Assembly: GCF_039538065.1 (NCBI RefSeq)
Contig: NZ_BAABBR010000001.1
Location: 968,501 to 1,032,500 of the forward strand
Length of the DNA stretch: 64,000 nt
Origin: Sphingomonas rosea
Lineage (GTDB): Bacteria; Pseudomonadota; Alphaproteobacteria; Sphingomonadales; Sphingomonadaceae
Direction of reading: 5' to 3'
This document shows, one piece after another, positions 2,309-4,555 of this stretch. The notes below the pieces were generated by a model, which saw only the letters and a list, made by a program, of their open reading frames with translations, was not told the DNA's origin and searched no databases. The position numbers and the translations under genes were made by a program. How positions within the stretch are numbered: position 1 is the stretch's first letter; each line of letters starts with the position of its first letter.

Positions 2309-3785
<1,477 letters not shown>

Positions 3786-3786
<1 letters not shown>

Positions 3787-4178
3787 TGGTGCTGGCGTTC
3801 GTAGCACTTGCCGCGTCGATGCAGGTCGCCGCGCCGGCCCCCGGACCGGCGTCCGAAGTGGTCGTGATGGGCCAGAAGCTCAAGAACTGGCGCGCGTCGG
3901 TCCGCGACCGGAACGGCAGGGTCGACTGCAAGGTCAAGGTGTCGTCCGGCGACAAGGAAATCGACGCCGTCGGCTGTCAGGCCATGACGACCTGCATGGC
4001 GCAGATGCGGCCGCGTCTTCCCTCCACCATCGACAAGAGCCTTTCCGCGGCAGAGCGCGAGGCGAACAACCAGTCGCTGAACCGCGATCTGACCGCCTGC
4101 GTGAAGACCAATCACGATACCGGCCTCGCAGCGCTGGCCGAGCGCCGGTACCAGGCGCGGCAGGGCGCCCGGCGGTGA
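3786..4178 (+). CDS. Unknown small four-cysteine protein inside the SUF operon
   Basis: 130 residues from ATG 3786, which shares its A with the sufB stop (TGATG); a GTG one codon earlier at 3783 is an alternative. The first ~17 residues are hydrophobic ([16 protein letters not shown]) followed by an Ala/Pro/Gly linker, resembling a short signal peptide but with no basic n-region. The rest is charged, with four cysteines at about 48, 64, 70 and 105, arranged as C-x15-C-x5-C-x~34-C. If exported, these could form two disulfides; if cytosolic, they could touch iron or sulfur. I do not recognise the family. Position and tight coupling to sufB and to the next gene suggest co-expression with Fe-S assembly, but function is unknown. 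Confidence 0.75.
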
Positions 4179-4555
4179 TCGCGCTCGCCCTCCTCGCGTC
4201 CATCTCGGACGACATCGACACGCTCGGCACGGCGGTGGCGAAGTGCGATCGGCCGGTGGTCAACACCACCATGTCGGCCGAGATGGGTCGCCGCAGCGAC
4301 TTCCTCCGGCAGGCATTCCGCGAGCAGGAGGCGATCGTCGCCGCGCGCCGCGACCTTGCCCAGCGCCGCCTCGCGCTGCGCAGCAACGTCGGCGCACAGG
4401 CGCCCGGCCTCGCCGCGCTCGATACCGAGGGGGCGATCATCGAAGACCGCCAGCGCGCATTGAACGACCAGCGCCTCCTCGAAAACCTTCGGCAGGAGTC
4501 GATGGACCAGCTCCGCCGACTCTTCCTCCAGAATTGCGCACCCGGAAAGAATTGA
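4175..4555 (+). CDS. Unknown small coiled-coil protein inside the SUF operon
   Basis: 126 residues starting at GTG 4175, overlapping the previous stop as GTGA; the stop overlaps sufC as TGATG. It opens with a short hydrophobic stretch (MIALALLASI) that could be a minimal signal sequence, then a long helical, Arg/Gln/Glu-rich segment (about residues 35-118) with heptad-like leucine spacing, predicted coiled coil. There are only two cysteines, near each end (about 24 and 122), so one terminal disulfide is possible. No family recognised. Like its upstream neighbour it is wedged between sufB and sufC; the two probably act together, which is inference from position. Confidence 0.75.
   Translation: MIALALLASISDDIDTLGTAVAKCDRPVVNTTMSAEMGRRSDFLRQAFREQEAIVAARRDLAQRRLALRSNVGAQAPGLAALDTEGAIIEDRQRALNDQRLLENLRQESMDQLRRLFLQNCAPGKN

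Follow-up and report, generated by a model that had tools for sequence, protein, structure and literature searches.

The suf operon and the two genes between sufB and sufC

The window, i.e. the whole stretch of 64,000 nucleotides analysed here, contains a complete suf operon in which an Rrf2 regulator, sufB, two small genes named P1 and P2, sufC, sufD, sufS, a SufT-like gene and sufA follow one another:

1883..2308, + strand: Rrf2-family regulator of the suf operon (SUF system regulator); NCBIfam TIGR02944, 114.1 bits (cut-off 110.65)
2305..3786, + strand: sufB; NCBIfam NF008773, 893 bits (cut-off 717)
3783..4555, + strand: variable gene slot at the sufB-sufC junction; an insert of varying content in 45/50 genus loci
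3783..4178, + strand: P1, small, probably exported protein; four invariant cysteines (49, 65, 71, 106) and a TonB_C-like core at about residues 37-84
4175..4555, + strand: P2, small, probably exported protein, predicted helical hairpin; two invariant cysteines (24, 121)
4555..5295, + strand: sufC; NCBIfam TIGR01978, 335 bits (cut-off 212.8)
5292..6044, + strand: sufD, short (250 aa); Pfam SUFBD_core, E 5e-44; NCBIfam sufD, 170.7 bits, below the cut-off of 222
6041..7231, + strand: sufS cysteine desulfurase; NCBIfam TIGR01979, 477.3 bits (cut-off 475.1)
7228..7698, + strand: SUF-associated assembly protein (SufT-like); NCBIfam TIGR02945, 148.3 bits (cut-off 143.4)
7698..8054, + strand: SufA/IscA-type carrier; Pfam Fe-S_biosyn, E 1.7e-18; NCBIfam TIGR00049, above cut-off

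The original prediction described P1 and P2 as two open reading frames (ORFs) between sufB and sufC that overlap at every junction, and the overlaps are indeed there, of 4, 4 and 1 nt. The stop codon of sufB (TGA, 3784-3786) is shared with P1, which starts either at GTG 3783 (4-nt overlap) or at ATG 3786 (1-nt overlap). P1 ends with a TGA (4176-4178) that overlaps the GTG of P2 at 4175 by 4 nt, and the TGA of P2 (4553-4555) shares one nucleotide with the ATG of sufC at 4555. The neighbouring genes are joined in the same way, by 4 nt at rrf2|sufB, sufC|sufD, sufD|sufS and sufS|sufT and by 1 nt at sufT|sufA. Overlapping starts and stops are a habit of the whole suf operon and nothing special to P1 and P2. 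Cysteine counts and a simple hydropathy test also agree with the four cysteines and hydrophobic leader expected for P1 and with the two cysteines and short leader expected for P2. Likewise, neither protein is a known SUF component: no Pfam or NCBIfam family matches either of them at E ≤ 1, and neither has a recognised SUF domain.

Two further observations concern the genes around the pair. In outgroup loci, the SufD match begins 446-597 nt after sufC (seven loci where this was measurable), as if these proteins had an N-terminal part absent from the window SufD. In Sphingomonas daechungensis (G010; loci L157, L056 and L097), the matches to sufC, sufS and sufA are broken across frames, apparently through sequencing indels in this assembly.

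A variable junction in a core operon

The suf regions of 49 genomes of the same genus were compared with the window, i.e. 50 of the 55 genus genomes with SufC, the five on short contigs being left out. An insert of at least 176 nt is present at sufB|sufC in 45 of these 50 loci. At the other junctions, at least 60 nt are found in 0/48 measurable loci for rrf2|sufB, 17/50 for sufC|sufD, 3/50 for sufD|sufS, 0/50 for sufS|sufT and 4/49 for sufT|sufA. The occupants of the sufB-sufC slot are mutually unrelated: 53 genus loci hold members of the P2 family (17), of a 59-aa family (10), of the Pfam DUF1330 family (5) and of the P1 family (4), together with at least three two-member families and several singletons. 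The same junction is therefore filled with unrelated content in related genomes, between conserved flanks. In all 45 occupied loci, sufB ends with TGA and the first slot ORF starts within this stop (4-nt overlap in 41, 1-nt overlap in 4). In the five empty loci, sufC begins right at the TAA or TAG stop of sufB. Translation of sufC may depend on P1 and P2 in the window, as the original prediction proposed, but in these five loci sufC follows sufB with no such gene in between. Chains of ORFs reach sufC in 41 of the 45 inserts, with 7.9 expected from shuffles, and under a strict rule in 25 of 45, with 3.0 expected.

The sufC|sufD junction has insertions of its own. A membrane-type protein of 98-99 aa is inserted there in loci L123, L125, L128, L130, L136, L154, L155 and L157, the L123 copy being cut short at 76 aa. 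Besides, short repeat-like inserts occur at this junction in seven loci and all of them are bridged by ORFs, with a shuffle expectation of 0.45-0.74 each. We had suspected strong selection of repeat inserts for bridging ORFs; as the shuffles place this bridging near chance, it is kept as a lead only.

Turnover of the slot can be followed between close relatives. In an operon tree built from SufB, SufS and SufT (53 rows, by a quick method that left 16 of the 50 inner branches weak), the window genome pairs with its sister G029 (support 85); the order is sufB-P2-sufC in G029 and sufB-P1-P2-sufC in the window. The junction measures 376 nt in G029 versus 768 nt in the window, and the difference of 392 nt equals the length of P1 minus its overlap. 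The hexamer GGTGAT occurs at the stop of sufB and is repeated at the start of P2, i.e. at both ends of the 392-nt difference, as read by eye because the automatic alignment misplaces the end of G029 sufB. P2 alone is also found in G020, whose SufC is the most similar to that of the window (96%). A gene-length difference of recent origin thus separates close relatives, P1 being in the window and missing from G029. Over the whole operon tree, the minimum numbers of changes, which do not separate into gains and losses, are 10 for P2, 4 for P1, 3 for DUF1330 and 2 for the 59-aa family. SufC itself is present in 92 of 100 relatives and in 77/77 genomes of good quality.

The variable junction extends to other genera of the family, where at least 150 nt lie at sufB|sufC in 54 of 68 measurable loci, a sample that favours good SufC matches (a 69th locus is without sufB, and three of the 68 were entered as P2 matches, the count being 51/65 without them). 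In other families of the order, the gap is at most 92 nt in 15/15 measured loci (one more is incomplete), and the sole ORF listed at sufB|sufC in these loci is 41 aa long.

A slot peculiar to suf was ruled out by the nuo operon, taken as a control in 20 genus genomes (G000:C1:43000-57500, locus L284, and 19 relatives). At least 60 nt are found at nuoE|nuoF in 18/20, at nuoF|nuoG in 16/20 and at nuoD|nuoE in 6/20, the remaining eight junctions having 0-3 cases each. The inserts at nuoE|nuoF and nuoF|nuoG reach 4279 nt. At the three variable junctions, 30 of 40 inserts have a first ORF whose start overlaps the preceding stop by 1 or 4 nt. The nuo slot ORFs are small, and many are of membrane or export type by eye. 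They resemble the suf slot ORFs in being small, overlap-joined and confined to a few hot junctions, but they have no sequence relation to them: none of the 131 suf slot ORFs gave a tblastn match in the nuo regions at E ≤ 1e-4. Since the nuo operon has similar variable junctions, the suf slot is an instance of a more general habit. Operons gain new or unknown (ORFan) genes in the course of their life cycle. What differs here is that many unrelated families make use of a single fixed junction, and do so with exact overlaps.

An insertion site of another kind lies within SufC. In-frame inserts of about 23-44 aa occur at a single site, immediately preceding DLLxLEPHERAAAG or a close variant of it, in 8/50 genus loci (L152, L153, L154, L155, L156, L158, L159 and L160) and in three other genera (L093, L256 and L274). 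They differ in kind by eye. When the DNA of two of them was searched against the respective genome, 20 and 69 matches were obtained (both strands counted), and these two inserts are therefore dispersed repeats. The site is an insertion hot spot inside the gene of a core ABC ATPase.

The P1 and P2 proteins and competing explanations

P1 and P2 both begin with a short, uncharged, hydrophobic leader, as judged by our own simple hydropathy threshold rather than by a signal-peptide program. On this basis, both proteins are probably exported. The leaders are without a basic n-region, and one P2 member (G080) fails the test. The same test is passed by 25 of 54 slot ORFs of the genus and by 26 of 77 of other genera, and the DUF1330 and 59-aa families fail it. 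As many slot ORFs fail, the slot is not reserved for exported proteins. For P2, 12 columns are invariant among 19 relatives, and its dN/dS is 0.19 against the nearest relative (G029), with a median of 0.36 over 135 pairs and values up to 0.71 among the 14 pairs listed. In P1, the four cysteines are kept in 9/9 relatives at 23-40% identity to the window protein; pairs of P1 genes have a dS of 1.1-1.8, too diverged for a dependable dN/dS. Because of the invariant columns and dN/dS of P2 and the conserved cysteines of P1, these ORFs look like real genes rather than chance frames.

For P2, AlphaFold2 predicts two helices (residues 26-70 and 76-120; mean pLDDT 88.9). The invariant Cys24 is placed just ahead of the first helix and Cys121 just past the second, so that the two cysteines would meet at the open end if the helices form a hairpin. 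The best Foldseek hit of this model has an E-value of 0.99, and the P2 profile matched one short helix among solved structures (E 0.2), which is unusable. The P1 model (pLDDT 85.4) consists of a helix, two strands, a helix and a long helix. Neither Foldseek (best E 1.5) nor VIA-align gave it a significant match among solved folds, and the P1 profile had 0 matches among solved structures.

The core of P1 resembles the TonB C-terminal domain (PF03544 TonB_C / PF13103 TonB_2) in sequence. About 43 columns are common to both, with the core C-x(4)-S-x-G-x(4)-D-x(3)-C, and hhalign gave a probability of 95.1 and an E-value of 3.2e-8 over 43 columns. The TonB set used for this comparison had been chosen from weak P1 profile matches: the profile has seven of these in the 71 genus genomes, six were tested, and 6/6 were verified as TonB_C domains. 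P1 differs from TonB_C in standing alone, in its two extra cysteines and in its long C-terminal helix. An exported TonB C-terminal domain can inhibit uptake, and the operon has an Rrf2 regulator. P1 might be a periplasmic mimic of this domain that is produced under Fe-S or iron stress and adjusts TonB-dependent uptake by binding the receptors or TonB itself. We regard this as unlikely, though worth keeping in mind. Pfam TonB_2 matches just one of six P1 members, at E 0.058 and below its curated cut-off, with no other TonB model at E ≤ 10 in the six. Moreover, the third strand, which in TonB is the element pairing with the TonB box, is absent from the P1 model. TonB is also absent from the 50 rows shown for P1 by Foldseek and VIA-align, which leaves room for the likeness.

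The possibility that P1 and P2 are lineage-specific SUF accessory factors, such as proteins that deliver or protect iron, sulfur or SufBC, depends on where their relatives lie, for which whole-genome searches sampled the family and the class. In the 71 genus genomes, the P1 profile has five strong matches, and every one belongs to a suf operon: four lie at sufB|sufC, the fifth at sufC|sufD. The family search covered 199 genomes and gave 30 with a match at E ≤ 1e-10, the threshold being placed where the list has a gap (the next genomes being at about 1e-6). In 24 of these 30, P1 adjoins sufC, 18 times at sufC|sufD and six times at sufB|sufC, and the other six matches lie elsewhere. P1 is a recurrent suf neighbour. 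The profile was made from nine suf-located sequences and may favour suf-located relatives, with 20 of the 24 standing outside it. At E ≤ 0.001, 111 of the 199 genomes match, the weaker matches being mostly short stretches of frames some 200-300 aa long. The suf operons of the window, G024, G567 and the uncultured L109 contain both P1 and P2. One locus, L254 (G671), has a tandem pair of P1-like genes between sufC and sufD.

P2 shows a similar attachment. Its profile matches in 18 of the 71 genus genomes, 17 times at sufB|sufC and once (G009, Sphingomonas arenae) near argH, and 249 family genomes gave three convincing cases from other genera, 3/3 of them at sufB|sufC. A weak match in G559 (E 3e-4) falls in a different type of frame, about 330 aa long, and was not counted. 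Among 385 genomes of the class, the profile recovered its own genome and, weakly, G232 (E 3e-4), which was left out of the count as well. In contigs of GTDB genomes, however, 15 named P2 loci divide into eight in suf and seven elsewhere in Sphingomonas records; seven of the 15 (six in suf, one not) belong to genomes already in the genus set.

Together with the constraint on the cysteines and on the P2 codons, this linkage is the best argument for a SUF accessory role, and P1 and P2 share their overlapping operon with SufA, the SufT-like protein and the Rrf2 regulator. Nevertheless, we find such a role distinctly unlikely. Unlike these accessory proteins, P1 and P2 match no family, bear leaders and are patchily distributed: P1 is present in 5/71 and P2 in 18/71 genus genomes, far from present wherever the SUF operon is, versus SufC in the large majority of relatives. 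P1 is missing even from the nearest relatives G029 and G020, the same place holds unrelated genes or nothing, and nearly half of the named P2 relatives are away from suf. The leaders, which point to another compartment, also argue against cytosolic P1 and P2 binding SufBCD or SufS. The suggestion in the original prediction that the pair forms an undescribed Fe-S assembly component finds no support in these observations. Its expectation that homologues would keep to the sufB-sufC junction holds as far as a strong linkage to suf goes; the linkage is not invariable for either protein, P1 being mostly on the other side of sufC in the family, and homologues are partly scattered, as the prediction had named as evidence against itself. 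The interest of the locus is the slot and the P1 family, rather than a new SUF subunit.

From the 131 slot ORFs, which were picked by script, 80 were scanned with Pfam (60 of 77 from other genera and 20 of 54 from the own genus; those omitted were mainly same-family repeats and doubtful frames). The commonest match is DUF559 (28), followed by the restriction-nuclease model MTES_1575 (4) and DUF1330 (2), with one each of DUF29, Imm53, DUF7336, an acetyltransferase and a Dabb domain. The pooled scan does not name its members; six DUF559 ORFs were confirmed individually, all of them belonging to other genera. Copies in the slot include L186, L204, L206, L220, L245 and L251, with a VDGD-H-type motif kept in some and lost in others by eye. 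DUF559 (PF04480) genes are like P1 and P2 in their sufB-sufC position and mostly in their type of overlap, but they are a different protein family, with none in the window. DUF559 is presumably a PD-(D/E)XK-like nuclease, and its abundance and the loss of its motif in some copies would fit a slot that is the present or past target of a DUF559 gene homing to sufB|sufC, later occupants having replaced decayed copies. This candidate reading appears very unlikely to us, as no DUF559-like ORF is seen by eye among the slot ORFs of the own genus and the nuo junctions vary too without relatives of the suf slot ORFs. Finally, that P1 and P2 are bridging sequence keeping sufC coupled rather than working proteins, as some inserts elsewhere in the operon that resemble dispersed repeats read as bridging ORFs might suggest, is scarcely credible given the low dN/dS of P2, the invariant cysteines of both proteins, their homologues outside suf and the near-chance bridging by short repeat inserts.

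Probable passengers of the suf operon

We consider it rather probable that P1 and P2 are exported, disulfide-type passengers of a variable sufB-sufC slot, translated in a coupled manner within a stress-regulated operon, their function being putative. According to this proposal, the sufB-sufC junction of Sphingomonadaceae would act as a slot where small genes come, go and replace one another as units running from start to stop. The observed RTGA or TGATG overlaps usually join the passengers to their neighbours and would keep sufC translationally coupled. P1 and P2 would leave the cytosol by Sec via their short hydrophobic leaders and become oxidised in the periplasm. There, P2 would be an antiparallel helical hairpin whose open end is clasped by a Cys24-Cys121 disulfide, and P1 a TonB_C-like core that carries two disulfides and is followed by a long C-terminal helix, as their predicted folds suggest. 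Because they share an operon with an Rrf2 regulator, both would be made under Fe-S cluster or iron stress, and they may act in the envelope, outside the SufBCD scaffold.

Zymomonas mobilis belongs to the same order as the window organism. Its suf operon is described as comprising seven genes and being induced by oxygen (PMC6372839), and knockdown of its suf genes is described as causing oxygen-specific fitness defects (PMC10746277). By analogy, the oxygen induction supports a stress induction of P1 and P2. In the titles and abstract openings listed by a few searches of open-access text, we found no mention of a variable gene between sufB and sufC. Against the passenger proposal stands the recurrence of P1 in suf, on both sides of sufC, which is far higher than expected of a random passenger. 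This recurrence, and the co-occurrence of P1 with P2, hint at a function tied to SUF.

A broader and more tentative idea, which may well prove wrong, is that core operons of Sphingomonadaceae are landing platforms in which RTGA overlap quartets at a few fixed junctions serve as exchange joints for whole small genes, P1 being a recurrent, TonB-domain-derived, four-cysteine envelope partner of the SUF regulon made on induction of Fe-S assembly. If true, small genes would be swapped without breaking translational coupling, most of them encoding unknown proteins and many bearing export-like leaders.

To conclude, this work names two uncharacterised protein families, one of which (P1) is recurrently tied to SUF. 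It also carries a warning that operon position and overlapping genes are no proof of function, one position of a core operon being filled by many unrelated genes. Besides, the suf slot is a natural system for studying how core operons can take up new genes and stay intact.
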